A stretch of DNA of 64,000 nucleotides, taken from NCBI RefSeq assembly GCF_002023715.1, contig NZ_MAHX01000005.1:124001-188000 (forward strand), in the 5' to 3' direction. Under the pieces are notes generated by a model, which had not been told where the DNA came from, searched no databases, and was given only the letters and a program-made list of their open reading frames with translations. The position numbers and the translations under genes were made by a program. Position 1 is the stretch's first letter, and every line of letters begins with the position of its first letter. Positions 1 through 9,644 of this stretch are shown here, piece by piece. The stretch is from Elizabethkingia occulta (GTDB lineage Bacteria; Bacteroidota; Bacteroidia; Flavobacteriales; Weeksellaceae).

Positions 1-1
1 G

Positions 2-430
2 GTAACACTTTCTCAGATTGCTATTGTGAGTGCTTTGGTTGTAATCGGAATGTTTTTATGTTTCAGATCGATAAAACCATTAATGGGAAATGCATTGGGC
101 GAGAGTTATGCTAAGTCTTTTGGAGTAAATCTGGAAAGACTAAAATACCTTGTTATTATTTGCTCTTCTCTGTTATCAGCAAGTATTACGGCATTTTTGG
201 GACCTGTTTTGTTTATCGGAATTGTAGTTCCTCATTTTTGCAGAATGTTATGGAATCCTGCCCAACTATGGCAGCAATGGATTCTTAATATATTATTTGG
301 TGCCTGCTTGTTAGAGTTGTTTTCCATTATCTCGGAACTGGCTCATTGGCCTATTAATATTATATCATCTTTGTTTGGAGTTCCTGTTATTCTGACCATG
401 CTTGTTAAAATGAACCGCCGTGCAGTCTGA
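2..430 (+). CDS. FecCD-family iron/siderophore ABC permease, 3' part
   Basis: This is the C-terminal 142 residues of an inner-membrane permease whose start lies before the window; the frame is open from base 2. Hydrophobic helices alternate with short loops. The segment GPVLFIGIVVPHFCRMLW matches the family hallmark in which a GP..F.GL..PH..R stretch precedes the last helices. Known FecCD/BtuC permeases move Fe-siderophore, heme or cobalamin into the cytoplasm with a periplasmic binding protein and an ATPase. The ATPase gene follows and overlaps this one by 11 bases, which supports co-translation. The substrate cannot be read from this fragment; iron chelate is the usual guess. Confidence 0.88.
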   Translation, partial: VTLSQIAIVSALVVIGMFLCFRSIKPLMGNALGESYAKSFGVNLERLKYLVIICSSLLSASITAFLGPVLFIGIVVPHFCRMLWNPAQLWQQWILNILFGACLLELFSIISELAHWPINIISSLFGVPVILTMLVKMNRRAV

Positions 431-1352
431 AGTTATTTTAAAATTAGAACATCTTGATATTGGCTACCAGAAAGTTTTGGTAAAAGATATCTGTGCGGAG
501 TTAAAGCTGGGAGAAGTTTGCCTGTTGATGGGAAATAACGGACAGGGAAAAACAACTCTTATTAAAAGTATCCTTGGTGAAAACAAATTGCTAAATGGTG
601 ATATTCTACTCGCAGAAAAGTCAATAAACACATTGTCTGCACTCCAAATTGCTAAAAAAATTTCAGTAGTATTTTCCAAAGCAACTATTCCAAACGGATT
701 TACAGTAAAAGACCTGATAAGTTTAGGAAAGTACATACATTACCCCTATTATTTTTCCCTTAATAAAAAAGATCAAGAAGAGGTTGTTGATATAATTAAT
801 AAGATTGGATTGCAGGAATATACAGATATGCCTCTTCAGCAGCTATCAGACGGAAACCTGCAAAAGGCTTTTATTGGCCGTGCATTAGTACAGAATACCT
901 CAGTTATTATTCTTGATGAGCCTACAACGCATTTGGATGAGAAGAACAAAACTATTGTTCTTACCACACTTCGTATGCTGGCAAAAGAATATCATAAAAC
1001 AATTCTGTTCTCCTCTCATGATTGGAGACTGGCAAAAGAATTTTCAGATAAGATATGGTATATTAAAGAAGGAGGATTATATTCTGGTATTGCCGAGGAT
1101 ATACTGTCCAACCATCCGGAATTGACAGCTCCTGCCCTTTTTCATTTTAATGAAGCATTTGTAACTCCTCATATTGAAGCATCCCAGTTACATAAAGAAA
1201 TGCTCTTCTCCGTGCTTCAAAAAAACTTCAAAAAAGACCTTTCTCAATTCAAATTTATCTTTCAGGATGGTATTTGGGATGTTTCTTCAGATACATTTCA
1301 AAAAAAAGCTAAAAGTTTTGAAGAAATTATTCAATTAATCAGAAACCTTTAA
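420..1352 (+). CDS. ABC transporter ATP-binding protein, FecE/FepC type
   Basis: This is the cytoplasmic ATPase partner of the upstream permease. A Walker A motif GNNGQGKTT lies at residues 38-46, the signature is LSDGN rather than LSGGQ, Walker B is VIILDEPT and the switch histidine sits in SSHDW. The GTG start overlaps the end of the permease gene. At 310 residues it is longer than the usual 250-265 for the family. The extra segment after about residue 240 has no motif I recognise. LSDG-type signatures are common in FecE-like importers, so activity is expected. Iron-chelate uptake is inferred from family and neighbour. Confidence 0.88.
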   Translation: MQSEVILKLEHLDIGYQKVLVKDICAELKLGEVCLLMGNNGQGKTTLIKSILGENKLLNGDILLAEKSINTLSALQIAKKISVVFSKATIPNGFTVKDLISLGKYIHYPYYFSLNKKDQEEVVDIINKIGLQEYTDMPLQQLSDGNLQKAFIGRALVQNTSVIILDEPTTHLDEKNKTIVLTTLRMLAKEYHKTILFSSHDWRLAKEFSDKIWYIKEGGLYSGIAEDILSNHPELTAPALFHFNEAFVTPHIEASQLHKEMLFSVLQKNFKKDLSQFKFIFQDGIWDVSSDTFQKKAKSFEEIIQLIRNL

Positions 1353-1382
1353 TAATCTGATAGTTCGGAAGCTTCAAATTAA

Positions 1383-1400
1383 TATTATGCATGCATAGTA
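1383..1400. promoter_or_regulatory. Upstream candidate MarR operator (copy 1)
   Basis: TATTATGCATGCATAGTA differs at one base from the perfect 18-bp palindrome found 84 bp downstream. The 12-bp core TATGCATGCATA is perfectly symmetric. The position, between the ABC gene and the marR-fad operon, suggests a second binding site for the same regulator. Confidence 0.6.
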
Positions 1401-1466
1401 TTATGCTTTTCATAGTTTTTAAAGTACTGGTTTCGAATATTTTAACAAAAATTAACTTTCCTGTGA

Positions 1467-1484
1467 TATTATGCATGCATAATA
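1467..1484. promoter_or_regulatory. Candidate MarR operator (copy 2), perfect palindrome
   Basis: TATTATGCATGCATAATA is a perfect 18-bp inverted repeat. It ends 5 bases before a TAAATTTG -7 box, so it occupies the space between the -33 and -7 positions of the marR-fad promoter. Bound protein there should block RNA polymerase, as expected for a self-regulated MarR repressor. The assignment to the adjacent MarR gene is inference. Confidence 0.68.
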
Positions 1485-1489
1485 ATTAT

Positions 1490-1497
1490 TAAATTTG
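1490..1497 (+). promoter_or_regulatory. -7 box of the marR-fad operon
   Basis: TAAATTTG fits the Bacteroidota -7 consensus TAnnTTTG exactly. No clear TTG is seen at -33. It overlaps an in-frame TTG codon at 1495, so translation probably starts at the ATG at 1522, about 18 bases after the likely transcription start. Confidence 0.6.
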
Positions 1498-1521
1498 AGA
1501 AGACCAGAATTTAATATTGAT

Positions 1522-1971
1522 ATGGATAATAACAAAGGAAGAGTTGATAACATTGATCTTATTCTGAAGCAGACCTGGCTGGCCGTTTCCAAAATGTATT
1601 CGGAGCGCGCTCAGGAATATGATTCAACAGCTGTTCAGGCTTTAACACTTTTAAAGATCGATCCTAAAGAAGGAACAAGGAGCACTAACCTTGGACCAAA
1701 GATGGCTATCGAGCCAACATCACTTACAAGAATCATTAAACTTCTTGAAGACAACGGTTATATCTATAAAGAAAAAACAACTACAGATAAAAGGGAGGTT
1801 ATAATAAAGCTTACCGATAAAGGACTTAATTCCAGAAACCTTTCAAAAGAAGTAGTAGTTAATTTCAACAAAAGAGTAATCGAAACCATTAATCCTGAAA
1901 AACTGGAAACTTTCAAGGAAGTAATGCGTGATATTTTGAATATAGCAAACGATTTAAATAACAAGAAATAA
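1522..1971 (+). CDS. MarR-family transcriptional regulator of the fad operon
   Basis: A 149-residue winged-helix regulator. The recognition region covers LGPKMAIEPTSLTRIIKLLEDNG-like residues, and the wing carries the typical DKR (TTDKREVIIKLTDKG). I chose the ATG because an upstream in-frame TTG lies inside the promoter -7 box. The gene is first in an operon with three beta-oxidation enzymes; fadN starts 14 bases after its stop. Two near-identical palindromes upstream are the likely operators. MarR proteins often bind small aromatic or CoA-linked ligands, so acyl-CoA derepression is a reasonable inference. In B. subtilis the equivalent operon uses a TetR-type FadR, so the regulator family differs. 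Confidence 0.88.
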   Translation: MDNNKGRVDNIDLILKQTWLAVSKMYSERAQEYDSTAVQALTLLKIDPKEGTRSTNLGPKMAIEPTSLTRIIKLLEDNGYIYKEKTTTDKREVIIKLTDKGLNSRNLSKEVVVNFNKRVIETINPEKLETFKEVMRDILNIANDLNNKK

Positions 1972-1985
1972 AATTCCAAATCTTT

Positions 1986-4388
1986 ATGAAAAGAAGAATA
2001 AAACATGTTACCGTTCTTGGTTCTGGGATTATGGGATCCGGTATTGCTGCACATTTTGCCAACATTGGTGTAGAAGTGTTGCTTCTGGATATTGTACCCA
2101 ACCAGCTTACTGATGCGGAAACAGCTAAAGGTCTTACATTAGAAGACAAAGCGGTTCGTAACAGAATTGCTTCCGAAAGTTTACAAAAACTTCCTAAAGC
2201 AAGTCCTGCACTACTCTATTCTCCAAAGTTTGTAAGCAGAATTACTGCAGGAAACTTCGATGACGATTTAGAGAAAATAAAAAATACTGACTGGATTATA
2301 GAGGTTGTTGTAGAGCGCCTTGACATTAAGAAGTCTGTATACGAAAAGATTGAGAAATACAGAAAACCGGGAACTTTAGTATCTTCTAATACTTCTGGTA
2401 TTCCTATTCATTTCCTTATTGAAGGAAGAAGCGATGATTTTAAAAAATACTTCGCAGGAACGCACTTCTTTAACCCGGTAAGATATTTACCACTTTTAGA
2501 GATTATTCCTACTCCGGAAACAGATCCTGATATTGTAGATTTCTATATGGAATATGGTGCTAAATTCTTGGGAAAAACTACAGTTTTAGCAAAAGATACC
2601 CCAGCGTTTATCGCTAACAGAATTGGTACTTTTGGTATTATGAATTTATTCCATTCTGTGAAAAAGCTTGGCTTAACAGTTGGTGAAATTGATAAATTAA
2701 CAGGACCAGTTATTGGACGTCCAAAATCTGCAACATTCCGTACTGCGGATGTAGTAGGTCTGGATACATTAGTACACGTAGCTAACGGAATCTATGGCAG
2801 TGGTGCAGAATCAGATACTTTCAAAGATCAATTTGTTCTACCTGATTTTGTACAATACATGATAGACAACAAGTTATTGGGATCTAAAACTGATGCTGGT
2901 TTCTTTAAAAAAGTAAAAAATGCTGATGGTAAGTCAGAAATCTTAGGTCTTAATCTTGAGACTCTACAATACGAACCACAAGGAAAATCAAGCTTCCCTA
3001 CTCTGGAATTAACAAAGACTATTGACCGTCCTATCGATCGTTTCAAAGTACTAATTGGCGGAAAAGATAAGGCTGGTGAATTCTACAGACAAATGCTGGG
3101 AGCCTTATTTGCTTATGCTTCTAATAAGGTTCCAGAAATTTCTGATGAAATCTATAAAATTGATGATGCTCTACGCGCAGGATTTGGATGGGAAAATGGT
3201 CCTTTCGAAATATGGGATGCAGTAGGCGTTCAGAAAGGTATAGAACTGGCTAAAGAAGCTGGATATGAAGTATCTGACTGGGTGAAAAATATGGCTGAAG
3301 GTACAAGCTTCTACAAAATCAATGATGAAGGACAAAAAACTTTCTTCAACGAGAAAGCTAACCAGTACGCTAATATCCCTGGACAAGATGCATTCATTAT
3401 TTTAGATAATATCAGAAAAAACAAGACTCTTTGGAGTAATTCCGGTTCTGCAATTGAGGATCTGGGAGATGGTATTATCAACTTCGAGATTCGTTCTAAA
3501 ATGAACTCTCTTGGAGGTGAAGTATTAGACGGATTAAACAGAGCAATTGATTTAGCTGAAAAAGATTACAATGGATTAGTAATCGGTAATCAGGCTGCTA
3601 ACTTCTCGGTTGGGGCCAACCTTGCTATGATCCTTATGATGGCTGTAGACCAGGATTGGGATGATCTGAATATGGCTATTAACTATTTCCAACAATCTAT
3701 GATGAGAGTACGTTACTCTTCTATTCCTGTTGTTGTGGCACCTCATGGTATGACTTTGGGTGGTGGTTGCGAAATGACGATGCATGCAGACAGAGTTGTG
3801 GCAGCAGCAGAAACTTATATCGGACTTGTTGAGTTTGGTGTTGGTGTAATCCCTGGAGGTGGTGGTTCCAAAGAACTTACTGTAAGAACAATGAAAGAAG
3901 TAATTGCGGACGATGTTAAAACAAACAGATTACGTGATGCCTTTATGAATATTGCCATGGCTAAAGTTGCAACTTCTGCATACGAAGCTTATGATATGGG
4001 TATTTTACAAAAACATAAAGATATAGTTGTTGTAAATAAAAACCGTCAGATTGCTGAAGCCAAACAAGTTGCTTTACAATTAGCTGAGCAAGGATACACA
4101 CAGCCTATCAAAGAGAAAGTAAAAGTACTTGGACAGGATGCTTTGGGTATGTTCTATGTAGGAACAGACCAGATGTTGGCTGGAAGATATATTTCTGAGC
4201 ACGATAAAAAAATAGCTGATAAGTTAGGTTTTGTAATGGCCGGAGGTAATCTTTCTGAAGCTACAGATGTATCTGAACAATACTTACTAAATCTTGAAAG
4301 AGAAGCTTTCTTATCGCTTTGTGGTGAAAGAAAAACTCTGGAAAGAATTCAGTACATGTTACAAAACGGAAAACCTCTTCGTAATTAG
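1986..4388 (+). CDS. fadN: 3-hydroxyacyl-CoA dehydrogenase/enoyl-CoA hydratase, FadN type
   Basis: A bifunctional beta-oxidation enzyme of 800 residues with the dehydrogenase part first. The NAD-binding GSGIMG lies at residues 12-17, and the central HFFNPVRYLPLLEI stretch is typical of hydroxyacyl-CoA dehydrogenases. The C-terminal part is a crotonase-fold hydratase with GMTLGGGCEM and EFGVGVIPGGGG oxyanion-hole segments. This domain order (dehydrogenase then hydratase) and the length match FadN of B. subtilis rather than E. coli FadB. It hydrates enoyl-CoA and oxidises the 3-hydroxyacyl-CoA with NAD. It is second in the marR-fadN-fadA-fadE operon; its stop codon lies inside the left repeat of the following four-helix module. 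Confidence 0.94.
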   Translation: MKRRIKHVTVLGSGIMGSGIAAHFANIGVEVLLLDIVPNQLTDAETAKGLTLEDKAVRNRIASESLQKLPKASPALLYSPKFVSRITAGNFDDDLEKIKNTDWIIEVVVERLDIKKSVYEKIEKYRKPGTLVSSNTSGIPIHFLIEGRSDDFKKYFAGTHFFNPVRYLPLLEIIPTPETDPDIVDFYMEYGAKFLGKTTVLAKDTPAFIANRIGTFGIMNLFHSVKKLGLTVGEIDKLTGPVIGRPKSATFRTADVVGLDTLVHVANGIYGSGAESDTFKDQFVLPDFVQYMIDNKLLGSKTDAGFFKKVKNADGKSEILGLNLETLQYEPQGKSSFPTLELTKTIDRPIDRFKVLIGGKDKAGEFYRQMLGALFAYASNKVPEISDEIYKIDDALRAGFGWENGPFEIWDAVGVQKGIELAKEAGYEVSDWVKNMAEGTSFYKINDEGQKTFFNEKANQYANIPGQDAFIILDNIRKNKTLWSNSGSAIEDLGDGIINFEIRSKMNSLGGEVLDGLNRAIDLAEKDYNGLVIGNQAANFSVGANLAMILMMAVDQDWDDLNMAINYFQQSMMRVRYSSIPVVVAPHGMTLGGGCEMTMHADRVVAAAETYIGLVEFGVGVIPGGGGSKELTVRTMKEVIADDVKTNRLRDAFMNIAMAKVATSAYEAYDMGILQKHKDIVVVNKNRQIAEAKQVALQLAEQGYTQPIKEKVKVLGQDALGMFYVGTDQMLAGRYISEHDKKIADKLGFVMAGGNLSEATDVSEQYLLNLEREAFLSLCGERKTLERIQYMLQNGKPLRN

Positions 4389-4417
4389 AAGTTAGAAGCA
4401 AGATATTAGAAGTTAGA
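4385..4417 (+). repeat. Left end of four-helix module 1: 13-bp direct repeats, 21-bp period
   Basis: ATTAGAAGTTAGA occurs at 4384 and again at 4405, exactly 21 bp apart. The first copy covers the fadN TAG stop and the second runs into the ATG of the four-helix gene. TTAGAAGTTAGAA (4385-4397) is perfectly complementary to TTCTAACTTCTAA on the other side of the gene. Confidence 0.8.
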
Positions 4418-4779
4418 TGAAAGCTCATAGGTTACAAGATCTACAGATTTGGCAAAAATCTATTTTATTAGTTAAGGAAGTTTATCTCTTAACAGAGAAT
4501 TTGCCGGCTGATGAAAAATATGGTCTTGTCTCTCAAATAAAAAGATGTGCAGTATCTATCCCTTCAAATATCGCTGAAGGAGCCGGAAGAAATAATTCAA
4601 AAGAATTTTATCAATTTTTAGGAATAGCCCAAGGGTCAAGCTACGAACTTGAAACACAGTTGATTCTTTTAATTGAATTGAAATTTATAGAAGAAATTAA
4701 AATTTCACCGCTTCTACAAAACCTAACTGAAATTCAGAAGATGATCTATAAGTTTAAAACAAATTTAATCGATGGTTAG
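4417..4779 (+). CDS. Four-helix-bundle protein (23S rRNA IVS / TIGR02436 type)
   Basis: A 120-residue all-helical protein. The segments LQIWQKSILLVKEVY, GLVSQIKRCAVSIPSNIAEG, NNSKEFYQFLGIAQGSSYEL and ELETQLILL form the standard pattern of the family first seen in intervening sequences of 23S rRNA genes; related proteins include diversity-generating retroelement Avd. The molecular role in this setting is unknown. The gene sits between fadN and fadA in the same direction and fills the spacer from end to end with its repeats. It has no metabolic link to its neighbours, so it looks like an inserted module. The reading frame is intact. Confidence 0.88.
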   Translation: MKAHRLQDLQIWQKSILLVKEVYLLTENLPADEKYGLVSQIKRCAVSIPSNIAEGAGRNNSKEFYQFLGIAQGSSYELETQLILLIELKFIEEIKISPLLQNLTEIQKMIYKFKTNLIDG

Positions 4780-4786
4780 ACTCATC

Positions 4787-4814
4787 TCTAACCTCTAAAT
4801 TCTAACTTCTAAAT
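4787..4814 (+). repeat. Right end of four-helix module 1: tandem 14-bp repeats, inverted to the left end
   Basis: TCTAACCTCTAAAT is followed directly by TCTAACTTCTAAAT, with one mismatch between units. Bases 4800-4812 are the exact reverse complement of 4385-4397, so in RNA the ends could pair and loop out the four-helix gene. The repeat ends one base before the fadA ATG. Confidence 0.8.
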
Positions 4815-4815
4815 T

Positions 4816-5994
4816 ATGAAACAAGCATATATAGTTGCAGGATACAGATCAGCGGTTGGTAAAGCTCCGAAAGGTTCACTCCGCTTTACAAGACCAGATG
4901 TAATGGCTGCAACAGTTATTGAAAAATTAGTGGGTGATTTCCCACAACTAGATAAAGACAGAATAGATGACCTTATCGTTGGTAATGCAATGCCAGAAGC
5001 AGAGCAAGGACTTAACGTAGCACGTCTTATTTCTCTTATGGGGCTTAACACCGATAAAGTACCGGGTGTTACAGTAAACAGATATTGTGCATCAGGATCA
5101 GAAGCTATTGCATTAGCATCTGCAAAAATCCAGACTGGTATGGCAGATTGTATTATTGCAGGGGGTACTGAATCTATGAGCTATATTCCTATGGGTGGAT
5201 ACAAACCGGTTCCGGAATCTCATATGGCAAAAGATCATCCTGATTACTATTGGGGAATGGGCTATACTGCCGAAGCTGTGGCAAAAGAATACAATATTTC
5301 CAGAGAAGAGCAAGATCAGTTTGCATTCGAGTCTCACCAGAAAGCTTTAAAAGCAATCGCAGAAGGCAGATTTGCAAATCAAATAGCTTCCATTCCTGTA
5401 GAGTATACTTTTCTGGATGAAAACCAAAAAACGCAGACTAAGAAATTTGATTTCTCTGTGGATGAAGGACCAAGAAAGGATACTTCTCTTGAAGGTTTGG
5501 CAAAATTAAAACCTGTTTTTGCTAATGGAGGATCTGTGACTGCAGGTAACTCTTCACAGATGTCAGATGGTGCTGCATTTGTTTTGGTAGTATCAGAAGA
5601 ATTTCTGAAAGAATTTAACCTTACCCCAATTGCGAGATTAGCATCTTATGCAGCGGCAGGTGTACCGCCAAGAATTATGGGAATAGGACCTATCTATGCT
5701 ATTCCTAAAGCGTTGAAACAGGCAGGACTTTCTCTTAATGATATTGATTTGATAGAGCTTAATGAAGCTTTTGCTTCTCAGTCTGTAGCTATTAAGAAAG
5801 AATTAGGATTGAATCCTGATATTCTTAATGTAAACGGAGGTGCTATTGCACTGGGACACCCGCTAGGTTGTACAGGAACAAAACTGACAGTACAACTTTT
5901 GGATGAAATGAGAAAAAGAGGTAATAAATATGGTTTAGTTTCTATGTGTGTAGGTACAGGACAAGGAGCTGCCTCAGTTTTTGAATTATTATAA
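4816..5994 (+). CDS. fadA: Acetyl-CoA C-acyltransferase (3-ketoacyl-CoA thiolase)
   Basis: A thiolase of 392 residues, the normal family length. The nucleophile is Cys91 in NRYCASGSEAI. The later catalytic blocks NEAFASQ, GGAIALGHPLGCTG and CVGTGQG are all intact. It cleaves 3-ketoacyl-CoA with CoA to acetyl-CoA plus a shortened acyl-CoA, the last beta-oxidation step. It lies third among the fad operon enzymes by position, after fadN and before the acyl-CoA dehydrogenase, as in B. subtilis fadNAE. No Shine-Dalgarno sequence is visible; the start directly follows the module repeat. Confidence 0.95.
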   Translation: MKQAYIVAGYRSAVGKAPKGSLRFTRPDVMAATVIEKLVGDFPQLDKDRIDDLIVGNAMPEAEQGLNVARLISLMGLNTDKVPGVTVNRYCASGSEAIALASAKIQTGMADCIIAGGTESMSYIPMGGYKPVPESHMAKDHPDYYWGMGYTAEAVAKEYNISREEQDQFAFESHQKALKAIAEGRFANQIASIPVEYTFLDENQKTQTKKFDFSVDEGPRKDTSLEGLAKLKPVFANGGSVTAGNSSQMSDGAAFVLVVSEEFLKEFNLTPIARLASYAAAGVPPRIMGIGPIYAIPKALKQAGLSLNDIDLIELNEAFASQSVAIKKELGLNPDILNVNGGAIALGHPLGCTGTKLTVQLLDEMRKRGNKYGLVSMCVGTGQGAASVFELL

Positions 5995-6023
5995 AATTTT
6001 AGATTTTAAATTCTAAATTTTAG
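5994..6023 (+). repeat. Left end of four-helix module 2: AAATTTTAG pair, 21-bp period
   Basis: AAATTTTAG occurs at 5994 and 6015, again exactly 21 bp apart as in module 1. The first copy starts on the last base of the fadA stop. The stretch is roughly complementary to the repeat after the gene. AT-richness makes chance similarity more likely than for module 1. Confidence 0.6.
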
Positions 6024-6028
6024 TTGAA

Positions 6029-6385
6029 ATGAGTTTCAAAGAAGATAACTTAATTCAGAATAAAACATTTGAATTTGCATTAGAGATTATCAAGTTTTAT
6101 GAAATTTGTAAATCTCAAAATGAATTTATTCTGGCAAAGCAAATTCTTCGTTGCGGAACTTCCATTGGTGCTAATGTAGAAGAAGCGATAGCAGCTCAAA
6201 GTAAAAAAGATTTTATTTCTAAGCTTTCTATTGCAAATAAAGAGGCTTGAGAAACAAAATACTGGGTAAGGCTTTATGAGTCATCAAATCTGGTTCAGTT
6301 TAACTTAGATTTTTATTTAAAAGAAATTGAAAGCATTATTAATATTTTAACTAAGATTATTAAAACATCATCTGAAAATTTATAA
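6029..6385 (+). pseudogene. Four-helix-bundle gene interrupted by in-frame TGA
   Basis: The first 73 codons encode a typical four-helix-bundle start, including QILRCGTSIGANVEEAIAAQ and SKKDFISKLSIANKEA. A TGA follows at codon 74 (6248-6250), and the same frame then continues with ETKYWVRLYESSNLVQFNL to a TAA, giving 118 codons overall. Family members usually read KEARETKYWL here, so TGA most simply arose from a CGA arginine codon by one C-to-T change. It is homologous to, but clearly diverged from, the intact copy between fadN and fadA. Either the gene is dead or only the N-terminal half is made. It fills the fadA-fadE spacer. Confidence 0.85.
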
Positions 6386-6395
6386 ACAGAATCTC

Positions 6396-6426
6396 ACTTA
6401 AAATATAAAATCTATAACTTAAAATT
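6396..6426 (+). repeat. Right end of four-helix module 2: ACTTAAAAT pair, 21-bp period
   Basis: ACTTAAAAT occurs at 6396 and 6417, 21 bp apart. The stretch is an imperfect inverted match of the left end (5994-6023). It ends 10 bases before the fadE ATG, so the module takes up nearly all of the intergenic space. Confidence 0.55.
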
Positions 6427-6436
6427 AATCAAACAC

Positions 6437-8212
6437 ATGGCAAATACTAAAGGAGGAGAATTCCTAATAAAAGATATTGAAGCAAAGGATATTTTCAGTA
6501 TCGAAGAATTAAACGAGGATCAAAAAATGATGCGTGATTCCGCTAAGGAATTTATCGATCGTGAAGTAGTTCCGAACAGAGAACGTTTTGAGAAAAAAGA
6601 TTATGCATATACTGAAGAAGTAATGCGTAAGATTGGTGAAATGGGCTTTTTAGGAATTGCTGTTCCTGAAGCTTACGGTGGTCTCGGAATGGGTTTTGTA
6701 ACAACTGTAATGGCTTGTGACTATCTTTCAGGAGCTACAGGTTCATTGGCTACAGCTTATGGTGCACACACTGGTATTGGTACTTTGCCGGTAGTTCTTT
6801 ACGGAACTGAAGCGCAAAAACAAAAATACCTTCCGGATCTGGCAACTGGTAACCATTTTGGTGCTTACTGCCTTACTGAGCCAGATGCTGGTTCAGATGC
6901 TAATTCAGGAAAAACTAAAGCTAAACTTTCTGAAGATGGTAAGCATTACATCATCAACGGACAGAAAATGTGGATCTCTAACGCAGGATTTGCCGAGACT
7001 TTCACATTATTTGCAAAAATAGATGATGACAAAAATATTACAGGTTTTGTTATTAATAAATCTGAATTAGAAAATCCGGATAGCTTAACGTTTGGTGAAG
7101 AAGAACACAAATTAGGTATTCGCGCCTCTTCTACTCGTCAGGTATTCTTCAATGATATGAAAGTTCCTGTGGAGAATCTTTTAGGAGAAAGAAATAACGG
7201 GTTCAAGATCGCTTTAAATGCATTGAACGTTGGACGTATTAAGCTTGCTGCGGCTTGTCTGGATGCTCAAAGACGTATAATGAATCATTCCATAAACTAT
7301 GCTAACGAAAGAAAACAGTTCGGTGTTTCGATCTCCACTTTTGGCGCAATCAGAAAGAAAATTGCTGAAATGGCTACTGGTACTTTCGTAAGTGAAGCTG
7401 GTACTTACCGTGCAGCTAAGGACATCGAAGATAAAATTGAAGAATTAGTAGCAGGCGGATTGGATCACCAACAAGCAGAATTAAAAGGTGTAGAAGAATT
7501 TGCTGTAGAATGCTCAATCCTTAAAACTTATGTATCCGATCTTGCTCAGCATACTGCAGATGAGGGTATTCAGGTTTATGGTGGTATGGGCTTCTCTGAA
7601 GATACACCAATGGAAGCAGCATGGAGAGATTCCAGAATTTCCAGAATCTATGAAGGAACTAACGAAATCAACCGTCTTCTTTCTGTAGGAATGCTTATTA
7701 AGCGTGCGATGAAAGGTGAATTAGACTTGCTTTCTCCAGCAATGGCTGTAGGAAAAGAATTGATGGGAATTCCTTCGTTCGAAACGCCAGACTATTCAGC
7801 TTATATGTCTGAAGAAAAAGCAATTATCCATAACCTTAAAAAGGTATTCTTAATGGTTTCAGGATCTGCACTTCAGAAATACATGACTGAGATTGAGAAA
7901 CAACAGCACTTATTACTAAATGCTTCTGAAATTCTGAACCAGATTTATATGGCAGAATCAGCAATTTTAAGAGCTGAGAAACATTTTGCTGAAGGTAGCG
8001 TAGAAGCTGCAATGGCAAGACTAAACTTATACAAAGCTGTAGAAAAGATTAATGTTGCGGCTAAAGAAGGAATTATTTCTTTCGCAGAAGGCGACGAACA
8101 GCGTATGATGCTTTCAGGTCTTAGAAGATTTACAAAGTATACAAACCATCCAAACGTAGTGAAGTTAACTGAAGAAGTTGCTGCACACTTTGTTAATAAA
8201 GGATCTTACTAG
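6437..8212 (+). CDS. fadE: Acyl-CoA dehydrogenase, FadE type
   Basis: A FAD flavoprotein of 591 residues catalysing the first oxidation of beta-oxidation. The blocks CLTEPDAGSDANS, WISNAGF and ERKQFGVSI bind FAD and substrate. The catalytic base is Glu406 in RIYEGTNEI. The extra C-terminal helical domain of about 150 residues and the total length match B. subtilis FadE (about 594 residues) and VLCAD-like forms rather than short 380-residue dehydrogenases. It is last in the marR-fad operon and followed by a strong terminator. The electron acceptor, usually ETF, is not encoded nearby. Confidence 0.94.
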   Translation: MANTKGGEFLIKDIEAKDIFSIEELNEDQKMMRDSAKEFIDREVVPNRERFEKKDYAYTEEVMRKIGEMGFLGIAVPEAYGGLGMGFVTTVMACDYLSGATGSLATAYGAHTGIGTLPVVLYGTEAQKQKYLPDLATGNHFGAYCLTEPDAGSDANSGKTKAKLSEDGKHYIINGQKMWISNAGFAETFTLFAKIDDDKNITGFVINKSELENPDSLTFGEEEHKLGIRASSTRQVFFNDMKVPVENLLGERNNGFKIALNALNVGRIKLAAACLDAQRRIMNHSINYANERKQFGVSISTFGAIRKKIAEMATGTFVSEAGTYRAAKDIEDKIEELVAGGLDHQQAELKGVEEFAVECSILKTYVSDLAQHTADEGIQVYGGMGFSEDTPMEAAWRDSRISRIYEGTNEINRLLSVGMLIKRAMKGELDLLSPAMAVGKELMGIPSFETPDYSAYMSEEKAIIHNLKKVFLMVSGSALQKYMTEIEKQQHLLLNASEILNQIYMAESAILRAEKHFAEGSVEAAMARLNLYKAVEKINVAAKEGIISFAEGDEQRMMLSGLRRFTKYTNHPNVVKLTEEVAAHFVNKGSY

Positions 8213-8241
8213 GATTTAATAATCACAAATAGTTTTTTTAG

Positions 8242-8268
8242 CGCCTCACTTTTGTGAGGCGTTTTTTT
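8242..8268 (+). terminator. Rho-independent terminator of the fad operon
   Basis: An 8-bp stem CGCCTCAC/GTGAGGCG with a TTTT loop is followed by seven T residues. Confidence 0.92.
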
Positions 8269-8381
8269 GTCTGTTAAAATATATTATATGTCTCTATCGA
8301 GATGAGTCATTTCCAATATTAATTTAACAATACATCTTTTCAAAACCCTTATTTAGATTTATAAAATCCTGATCAAATAAC

Positions 8382-8389
8382 TATCTTTG
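8382..8389 (+). promoter_or_regulatory. Possible -7 box for the DUF218 gene
   Basis: TATCTTTG fits TAnnTTTG, 20 bases before the ATG. No TTG is seen at the expected -33 position. Confidence 0.45.
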
Positions 8390-8408
8390 GATACAAATTC
8401 TAGTTTTT

Positions 8409-9644
8409 ATGATATCAAAAATCCGGACTGTTGCAGTATTGAGTATAGCTATTACCCTGCAGACACTTTCTGCTCAGGAAAAACAACCTCAATCTCCACA
8501 AGAATGGGAAATTTATAAAAATTATTATTTGATTTATTCCTTCCGGAATAATACATCCCTATTTCAGGAACTGCATAAAGATCCTGCTGTACAAACAATG
8601 CTAAATGATAGAAATAAGAGATTTGAAACTGGGAAAGACTGCCCTACTACCGATTGTCTTATTGATGCTTTAAAATGGAAAGAGTCCGAAATTACTGCTC
8701 TTAATAATAAATTTCAGGACCTTTTTGCCAGAAACAAAAGCTTTCAGAGTTTTATAGAACATACACTATATCCATCCCGGAAATATTCAAAGTCTGAATC
8801 TCTGAATCCTAAAGAATATCTCCAAAAGGCTTTATTACAGGACCTAAAAGCGATGAATAATGTTATTGATATTTATGGTGCCGGTAAGAAACCTAATTAC
8901 CCGGATATAGATTCTATTTCTTTTAATGTAAAAGATAAAAACTATATTGAGCTATTAAGAAATGTGCGGTTTGATGTAGCTGCTGATACAGAAAAGAATG
9001 CTTTCGACCAGACATTGTTATCTGCTATCCGTCTGCTGGAAGTAAATGAACGTTGGGATGCAGCTATGTTAGAGCCTCTGACCAAGACCGAAAATAAAGA
9101 AGCTTATAACAAAGTAAAGAAAACTGATTTTTCCAAATACCCTTATGCATCTTTACTTATTTTAGGGGCAGGTCCGCAAGTCTATGGACAGAAAATAAGC
9201 CCGATGGGAATGTTGAGATCCAGGCAGGCATTGAGGGCATATCAGAAAGGATTAGCGCCATTTATTATCGTTTCCGGAGGACGTGTTCACCCTTTTAAAA
9301 CACAATATACAGAGGCAGTGGAAATGAAACGTTATATGGTAGAAGTTCTTGGAATTCCTGCATCTGCAATTATTATAGACCCTTTTGCCAGACATACAAC
9401 AACCAATGTAAGGAATGCCGGGCGTATGCTCATAGATTATGGTTTTCCAAAAGACAAATGGTCTTTAGTATCCAGTAGTAAAACCCACATTGATTACGTT
9501 GAGAAAGCAATGGATAAACGCAGCATAAAAGAACTGGGTACTGTTCCTTATATTGTTGGTAAACGAATCGATGATCTGTTGTTGGAATATAAACCTACTC
9601 CAGACGCGTTCTTAATTAATCCGGCCGAACCTCTGGATCCGTAA
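8409..9644 (+). CDS. Exported DUF218 (YdcF/SanA/ElyC-like) protein
   Basis: A 411-residue protein with a signal peptide (hydrophobic VAVLSIAITLQTLSAQ, cleavage probably after SAQ). Residues 1-230 are a helical region with no motif I recognise. The second half is a DUF218 fold: SLLILGAGPQVYG, RSRQALRAYQKG, PFIIVSGGRVHP, the acidic IIIDPFARHTTTN and the LVSSSKTH block. Related E. coli proteins SanA and ElyC act in envelope integrity and lipid-carrier-linked steps, but the chemistry is unsettled. The long N-terminal extension is typical of Bacteroidota members. It stands alone with its own promoter-like box. Confidence 0.78.
   Translation: MISKIRTVAVLSIAITLQTLSAQEKQPQSPQEWEIYKNYYLIYSFRNNTSLFQELHKDPAVQTMLNDRNKRFETGKDCPTTDCLIDALKWKESEITALNNKFQDLFARNKSFQSFIEHTLYPSRKYSKSESLNPKEYLQKALLQDLKAMNNVIDIYGAGKKPNYPDIDSISFNVKDKNYIELLRNVRFDVAADTEKNAFDQTLLSAIRLLEVNERWDAAMLEPLTKTENKEAYNKVKKTDFSKYPYASLLILGAGPQVYGQKISPMGMLRSRQALRAYQKGLAPFIIVSGGRVHPFKTQYTEAVEMKRYMVEVLGIPASAIIIDPFARHTTTNVRNAGRMLIDYGFPKDKWSLVSSSKTHIDYVEKAMDKRSIKELGTVPYIVGKRIDDLLLEYKPTPDAFLINPAEPLDP

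Follow-up and report, generated by a model that had tools for sequence, protein, structure and literature searches.

To our knowledge, no function has been established for genes of the PF05635 (23S_rRNA_IVP) family. In Coxiella burnetii, an intervening sequence (IVS) of the 23S rRNA carries an open reading frame (ORF) of this family (23S_rRNA_IVP/S23p) and a 28-bp terminal stem, its processing by RNase III has been shown, and it is described as a selfish element (PMC4990558); in bacteria of the Candidate Phyla Radiation (CPR), insertions in 16S and 23S rRNA genes include 23S_rRNA_IVP ORFs (PMC11270868). We examined a stretch of 64,000 nucleotides from Elizabethkingia occulta (NZ_MAHX01000005.1, positions 124,001 to 188,000 of the forward strand; hereafter the window), in which a four-helix-bundle (4HB) gene of the same family lies between the operon genes fadN and fadA. 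With its flanks, this gene probably constitutes a hairpin-borne intercistronic element, in which degenerate heptads repeated in tandem make up the two arms of a long, imperfect stem and the loop carries the 4HB gene.

The likeness to the 23S rRNA IVS lies in the protein family and in an ORF set between complementary stem-forming termini, the stem being a predicted one in the window (PMC4990558); the window module is also sporadic among relatives. It differs in that the Coxiella site is the 23S rRNA, whereas here the module occupies an operon spacer beside coding genes and its arms are heptad arrays. An earlier note on this DNA had proposed that the layout of the rRNA IVSs recurs inside an mRNA; the stem-framed layout is present, as a predicted stem, but the rRNA site of the IVS class is not, the module lying between fadN and fadA, outside rRNA. 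A 23S-IVS-like working placed in operon mRNA is the best-supported reading of what the module may do.

The cyanobacterial short tandemly repeated repetitive (STRR) heptanucleotides, said to have been described by Vioque in 1997, reportedly have a 7-nt unit. TAACTGA heptads, which tend to stand directly before start codons, are known from Beggiatoaceae, from cyanobacteria and from five Bacteroidetes; these and the STRR share with our module the tandem intergenic 7-mers, but the TAACTGA heptads are direct repeats, and the excerpt describes no link to 4HB genes or inverted arms (PMC4679880). The P6b stem of the Nostoc trnL group I intron is built from degenerate heptads (TDNGATT / NNTGAGT) of a stated unknown origin and comes closer, being a heptad-built RNA stem whose length shifts by repeats on one or both sides and whose word class is replaced between lineages; it differs in belonging to an intron rather than to an operon spacer, and the excerpt describes no protein gene in its loop (PMC4476775). 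Among the top-ranked open-access literature results, we found no publication tying heptad arms to 4HB genes, which does not show that the link is unpublished.

The 4HB gene and its arms occupy the fadN–fadA spacer from stop codon to start codon. As the earlier note had it, positions 4385–4397 and 4800–4812 are perfectly complementary (13 of 13 bp on re-reading), the fadN stop codon (TAG, 4386–4388) lies inside the left repeat, and a single base separates the end of the right repeat (4814) from the fadA ATG (4816). Its count of two 13-bp and two 14-bp repeats was right as to the inverted repeats, which are real, but each side actually consists of about five degenerate heptads. In 20,000 random pairs of 36-nt segments drawn from the 64-kb window with the same spacing, the longest inverted match was 12 bp and none reached 13; in a second random set, the inverted-alignment score of the window arms (14.0) was equalled by 3 of 20,000 pairs. 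Folded as RNA, the segment 4370–4830 is predicted to reach −100.6 kcal/mol, with the fold closed by the outer parts of the arms; the mean of 100 shuffled sequences was −80.75 (standard deviation 5.1, z −3.89) and none was as stable.

The genome of the window (G000; G001 to G005 denote other genomes of its genus and L-numbers individual loci) contains ten PF05635 matches, two of which are fragments of one gene. All upstream flanks were scored against all downstream flanks read as reverse complements, and the self pair of a locus was set against the swapped pairs. For seven of the nine loci of this genome, the self pair was strictly the best in both its row and its column. We then extended the comparison to 58 loci hand-picked for distinct groups, namely the nine own-genome loci (two fragments merged), 29 from a genome sample and 20 of 80 loci obtained by similarity; by their named relatives they are Bacteroidota, one being labelled Chlorobiota, and because some loci are orthologous pairs the independent cases number fewer than 58. 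The median self score was 14.25 versus 7.5 for swapped pairs, and self pairs exceeded the 95th percentile of swapped pairs at 36 loci and the 99th at 20. As a control we used ordinary small genes between co-directional neighbours, purged by blastp (60 kept, 114 cargo-like ones removed), which gave a median of 8.0, a 95th percentile of about 10.5 and a maximum of 12.0; 44 of the 58 4HB loci exceeded that 95th percentile (P = 2e-12). Predicted arm–arm pairs, covering 56 loci of this set, had a median of 17.6 versus 6.6 for chimeras with a foreign left flank (P = 6e-5), and self pairing was above the chimera mean in 38 of the 56. By eye, inverted heptad arms also adjoin the gene in most of the 80 similarity loci (80 of the 109 loci found by similarity to the window protein, mostly orthologs with common words). 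Other family members, which the earlier note had suggested searching for terminal inverted repeats, are thus likewise framed, and the hairpin-framed 4HB feature is real and general.

The period of the arms is seven. In the 70-nt flanks of the 58 loci, autocorrelation peaked at lag 7 (0.401 upstream and 0.420 downstream, against about 0.29 at most other lags), with echo peaks at lags 14 and 21 in both flanks, indicating a tandem period of 7; ordinary spacers of the same genome (n = 168) gave 0.314 at lag 7 and no peak. The words themselves vary by locus (by eye TTAGAAG, GTTATAA, TTTTAGA, GAGTATT, AGACAAA, TGTACAA, GCGAGCA and others), and the terminal words differ between most loci of G000, two of which share one. 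Left flanks are richer in G than in C (0.173 and 0.116) and right flanks the reverse (0.114 and 0.203). The left arm holds four heptads at 18 of the 58 loci and five at 13, and the right arm three at 12, four at 15, five at 9 and six at 10; a reading modelled on the trp RNA-binding attenuation protein (TRAP), with one heptad for each subunit of a pentamer, was rejected on this ground, the number not being fixed at five. As a separate observation, the word TTAGAAGTTAGA has 23 copies in G000 versus 5 for its reversed control; it often stands right after stop codons (L024–L027, G000:C7:251625-251657; L011–L033), and its copies outside the window module have no adjoining 4HB gene as far as read.

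Such arms might be nothing more than a mutational side effect, the heptad arrays arising in spacers by slippage and hairpin-templated copying and the 4HB genes being merely retained there. Heptad words do exist without 4HB genes, period-7 repeats have been proposed to favor polymerase slippage (PMC4679880, from the excerpt), and repeat number changes between close Nostoc strains: in the right arm at a plasmid locus described below (the TraM slot), a run of six TGTTCCC in one strain corresponds to a run of five in a second, TGTTCTC coming next in both, and the stretches are 99.1% identical. We nevertheless hold this explanation to be very improbable, as ordinary spacers of the same genome have no lag-7 peak, ordinary small genes are not framed in this way, and compact sibling spacers lack both the arms and the gene. 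Moreover, a high heptad score and an inverted repeat coincided in just 4 of 163 sampled spacers: two of the 109 co-directional ones, two of the 25 divergent ones and none of the 29 convergent ones.

Among the 54 4HB loci with two resolved neighbours, 49 are flanked by genes co-directional with the 4HB gene, versus 179 of 311 ordinary genes; between same-strand neighbours the 4HB gene is in sense in 49 of 50 cases and ordinary genes in 179 of 197, so that orientation alone is not unusual for a resident gene. Fifteen spacers were traced through up to six genomes of the genus: fadN–fadA, fadA–acd, scoA–scoB, carA–carB, hisC–hisB, hisB–hisH, trpE–trpG, metB–metH, aspC–kdsB, tsaD–rsmE, groES–groEL and four others (gene names by protein reading; hisC–hisB and abc–hlyD compared in three genomes each). 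Of the 77 resulting combinations of spacer and genome, at least four have no clear state (metB–metH and x–map in G001, carA–carB and tsaD–rsmE in G005). Every one of the 15 spacers is without a 4HB gene in at least one genome read, and three states recur: compact without arms, filled with a 4HB gene (355–554 nt), and gene-less with heptad words. The compact spacers measure 4–8 nt at carA–carB (three genomes), 9, 2 and −4 nt at aspC–kdsB, and 0 nt at tsaD–rsmE (one genome). At aspC–kdsB, two genomes have a 4HB gene with GTTATAA arms, one a gene-less hairpin with another word and three a compact spacer; at fah–flr, two genomes have a 4HB gene and two a GxxExxY gene with another inverted word. 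The gene-less scoA–scoB spacer of G002 looks like a gene loss between two copies of TGAAAA that kept the arms, this direction being the one suggested by the sequences. The sequences show that the arms nearly fill the stop-to-start space, that the word is locus-specific, that arms and gene are jointly present or jointly missing at operon spacers of close relatives, and that some spacers hold different 4HB lineages, a GxxExxY gene or gene-less hairpins.

The alignment of the fadN–fadA operon across relatives, for which the earlier note had called, found the window module in two of six genomes of the genus, no 4HB gene in three, and in one a different 4HB gene framed by TGTACAA-type inverted arms. 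Two of the genomes without the gene keep the left-arm-like TTAGAAGTTAGAA in a 36-nt spacer, and the third has an unrelated spacer of 189 nt. What we saw was therefore neither uniform presence among relatives nor a family whose other members are free of repeats.

Two further kinds of spacer content were encountered. GxxExxY genes (PF13366, PD-(D/E)XK superfamily) also lie in operon spacers with inverted repeats (L122:3179-3587 and L126:6205-6619 in the genome of the window, and L169–L198). The figures for 30 loci are rough, with gene limits misplaced or cut in several (L171, L184, L189, L195): the median self score is 11.5 versus 8.0 for swapped pairs, whose 95th percentile is exceeded at 13 loci and whose 99th at 8. 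Co-directional neighbours flank 23 of 28, and there is no period of 7 (weak signals at 9–12; words such as CGCAAAGA and CACAGAGA). A spacer hairpin of a different class, GCTTCGACTC...GAGTCGAAGC together with TGTCACGCTGAGC, fills the spacer that follows aspC in several relatives (L299, L302, L303, L305, L307, L310, L312), and a similar one is found in trpE–trpG of G000 (L274).

The history of the genes was read from a tree of 66 proteins with some weak forks and three very long branches. Seven fadN–fadA residents including the window gene form one clade (100/97), joined by L052 from another site, and a second clade unites three distant Bacteroidota (99/92); L112 groups with fadA–acd residents, and L150 and L232 fall outside a starred 99/93 branch that holds the others. 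Within the genus, the fadN–fadA 4HB proteins of G000 and G005 (L232) are separated by that same branch, and the carA–carB ones of G000 (L007) and G005 (L235) sit in unrelated clades. The group count of the tree tool, with 50 rows of other spacers left out, gives one change for the fadN–fadA label. Judging from these placements, replacement of one 4HB gene by another is clearer within the genus, where G000 and G005 have unrelated proteins in fadN–fadA and in carA–carB, than among distant lineages, for which an ancestral fadN–fadA residence with escapes to other spacers may be the case. L052, which shares the word of the fadN–fadA clade, is probably a move that carried its arms along, in either direction. 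Close relatives of the gene occupy the same fadN–fadA spacer at 13 of the 80 similarity loci, in several genera, and all six of these that the tree includes group with the window gene. Because of these relatives across genera and of purifying selection (below), the window gene itself seems to have resided there for long and to have passed on mostly by vertical descent. Absence and replacement among relatives thus support the idea, raised in the earlier note, of a mobile element, but the window gene does not look like a recent insertion.

A rival explanation rests on host benefit: the heptad stem would serve the processing or stability of the RNA between cistrons, the 4HB protein would regulate the operon or its own transcript, and spread would come from ordinary gain, loss and recombination instead of self-mobility. 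The resident 4HB protein is under purifying selection: dN/dS (the ratio of nonsynonymous to synonymous substitution rates) is 0.00–0.13 for orthologous genes at nine spacers (nine pairs, the fah–flr one from an incomplete ORF of 79 aa, the split scoA–scoB copy being left out). Long residence in one operon over several genera and the ending of the arms near stop and start codons point the same way. However, the host genes are functionally unrelated (fadN/fadA, carA/carB, hisB/hisH, groES/groEL, scoA/scoB, cas6/cas4), all 15 slots are 4HB-free in at least one genome read of the genus, and one spacer is held by different 4HB lineages in different members of the genus; we therefore regard a host-regulatory cistron as possible but unlikely. 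G000 also has a stop-broken 4HB copy (fadA–acd) and a split one (scoA–scoB).

REP/REPIN-RAYT systems (repetitive extragenic palindromes and their associated transposases) have short inverted repeats around one small gene, which encodes an HUH transposase, and gene-less hairpins elsewhere in the genome. Our loci have the same two components, but the gene encodes a four-helix bundle instead of an HUH transposase, and the word varies from copy to copy. A conventional DNA transposon, or a miniature inverted-repeat transposable element (MITE), mobilized in trans by some transposase recognizing the arms would account for terminal inverted repeats, empty sites and repeated occupation of spacers, as well as for L052, located at another site yet belonging to the fadN–fadA clade and carrying its word. 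It is nonetheless quite improbable, since within one genome most copies have termini of differing sequence, there is no transposase in the module and no consistent duplication, and no near-identical copies at different places were seen among the matches listed. A possible 6-bp target duplication, TATAAC, was observed at both ends of the aspC–kdsB module of G000 (L217, arm word GTTATAA) and once in a compact relative. Copying of the heptad word from the target site, suggested at this locus, was discarded because it was not seen at carA–carB, scoA–scoB or tsaD–rsmE.

A tblastn search with the window protein matched 27 plasmid records. Going by genus names, cyanobacteria account for at least 19 and Riemerella for four; nine of the 27, all cyanobacterial, were analysed. 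Their lag-7 values (0.522 and 0.561) are stronger than those of the 58-locus set, the median self inverted score is 23.0 versus 7.75, five of the nine exceed the 95th percentile of swapped pairs, and inverted heptad arms are seen by eye in seven (GGGAGTA, GGGAACA, GGGTGTA, GGTGACA and others). An annotated transposase gene lies beside two of the nine loci. The TraM slot contains a 4HB gene in Nostoc C052 and N. edaphicum; among five relatives without it, three have spacers of 51–52 nt, one a gene-less heptad hairpin and one a longer, unlike spacer, the flanks of the best 51–52-nt empty site (Nostoc) being 94.5% identical to those of the filled site. An integrase slot is filled in Calothrix and measures 3 nt in three relatives, with Tolypothrix flanks 91.1% identical. 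Other contexts include an antisense insertion between two nrd genes and, at L339, L346 and L347, CRISPR operons (cas6–4HB–cas4 twice, cas10–4HB–cmr3 once); the habit of settling in spacers could explain these neighbourhoods without a role in CRISPR.

The window protein matches PF05635 at 137.6 bits (cut-off 33.8), and in a sample of 118 genomes of the same phylum as the window, 90 had a match to the family, with up to 16 matches per genome. AlphaFold2 predicted four helices for the monomer from an alignment of 34 sequences, with a predicted local distance difference test (pLDDT) score of 93.7; the model made without alignment was poor (pLDDT 47) and the alignment-based one was used. The closest solved structures are Xcc0516 (2gsc; template modelling [TM] score 0.91) and BT_0352 (2rld; TM about 0.8), entries of five chains each, the window protein being modelled as a monomer. 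The fold is also that of Avd, the accessory protein of diversity-generating retroelements (DGR), both in the Bordetella phage retroelement (4dwl; TM 0.80, E 0.025, a weak match) and in complex with reverse transcriptase (8ub7; TM 0.76), with identities of just 10–12% and E-values of 0.025 and above; the module differs from such elements in that the bAvd profile scored 20.3 bits, under its cut-off of 40, and in that no reverse transcriptase was found among the four neighbouring proteins scanned. The window protein had no match in phage records, and an Rfam scan of window positions 1–9000 at the gathering threshold found nothing. A reading as a basic RNA-binding protein was rejected on the pI of 6.59.

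Taken together, we favor the hairpin-borne element and infer RNase III cutting, self-mobility and action of the protein as its workings. In the operon transcript, pairing of the arms would seal the 4HB cistron off in the manner of a 23S rRNA IVS, so that the operon could tolerate the insertion. The stem may be cleaved by RNase III or another ribonuclease acting on double strands, and the 4HB protein, with its Avd-like fold, may act on its own stem or transcript and so help the unit to persist or move. Turnover of heptads by slippage would allow the words to change over time without much loss of complementarity between the arms.

A number of results count against this proposal. Concerning the arms, about a quarter of the 58 loci have no clear ones (14 at or below the control 95th percentile), and only 20 have a self pair that outscores every other pair in its row. 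In the genome of the window, the hisB–hisH locus, which has the same word, equals the window arm pair in the row and beats it in the column, and L002 has no self match. In the 80-locus set self pairs hardly rise above the rest, with a mean of 16.6 versus 12.7 for swapped pairs, five loci above the 95th percentile and none above the 99th. Beyond close relatives, words and proteins do not go together (rho 0.11, as high in 10 of 300 permutations). Within three ortholog groups (13, 19 and 22 loci) no compensatory covariation of the arms was found, a negative result of the pair-by-pair analysis that speaks against selection on exact pairing, and in one group swapped arms pair better than self arms; since self pairing is no better within ortholog groups, the arms could work as repeats that match only loosely, or slippage and template switching could keep them alike. 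Among the nine cyanobacterial loci, two are not inverted (L347 has heptads in direct orientation and L341 no inverted pair) and only six lie between co-directional genes. Concerning movement, no consistent target duplication was seen, TATAAC being the one possible case; in the TraM slot the module has taken the place of the greater part of the former spacer, with no clean or simple duplication, and its long residence in Weeksellaceae would be expected of a host gene just as much as of an element. Finally, the window module yielded neither a transposase nor a reverse transcriptase nor a match to a known RNA family, and the protein is neutral, with 14 acidic and 14 basic residues.

Coordinates of the window module and of its neighbours are collected in table 1, together with those of a second module in the adjacent fadA–acyl-CoA dehydrogenase spacer.

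Table 1. Features of the fadN–fadA module and adjacent genes (positions in the window)
Feature	Position	Strand	Remark
fadN-type 3-hydroxyacyl-CoA dehydrogenase/enoyl-CoA hydratase gene, upstream neighbour	1986..4388	+	stop TAG 4386-4388 inside left arm
Left arm, five degenerate heptads TTAGAAG TTAGAAG CAAGATA TTAGAAG TTAGATG	4385..4419	+	last heptad overlaps 4HB start codon
13 bp, exact complement of 4800-4812	4385..4397	+	
4HB gene, PF05635 23S_rRNA_IVP, 120 aa	4417..4779	+	
Right arm, five degenerate heptads ACTCATC TCTAACC TCTAAAT TCTAACT TCTAAAT	4780..4814	+	roughly reverse-complementary to the word of the left arm
fadA-type thiolase gene, downstream neighbour	4816..5994	+	single base separates right arm (end 4814) from ATG
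Left arm of second module, word TTTTAGA/TTTTAAA, fadA–acyl-CoA dehydrogenase spacer	5995..6023	+	
Second 4HB gene, in-frame TGA in G000	6029..6352	+	two relatives without stop inside match
Right arm of second module	6398..6426	+	limits approximate
Acyl-CoA dehydrogenase gene, downstream neighbour of second module	6437..8212	+	

A broader proposal, which we advance as doubtful, is that heptad stems together with 4HB genes belong to a single class of mobile element acting at the RNA level, present at least in Bacteroidota and Cyanobacteria, of which the rRNA IVSs would be the rRNA-dwelling minority; a ring of Avd-like 4HB proteins would maintain, amplify or move the stems, and the STRR, TAACTGA and trnL P6b heptads would be its footprint. 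Heptad arms, operon spacers and gene-less hairpins give the PF05635 family a genetic context. The finding extends the idea of the rRNA intervening sequence to mRNA and offers a source for heptanucleotide repeats, and both questions, the function of PF05635 and the origin of the heptads, become testable in laboratory strains.

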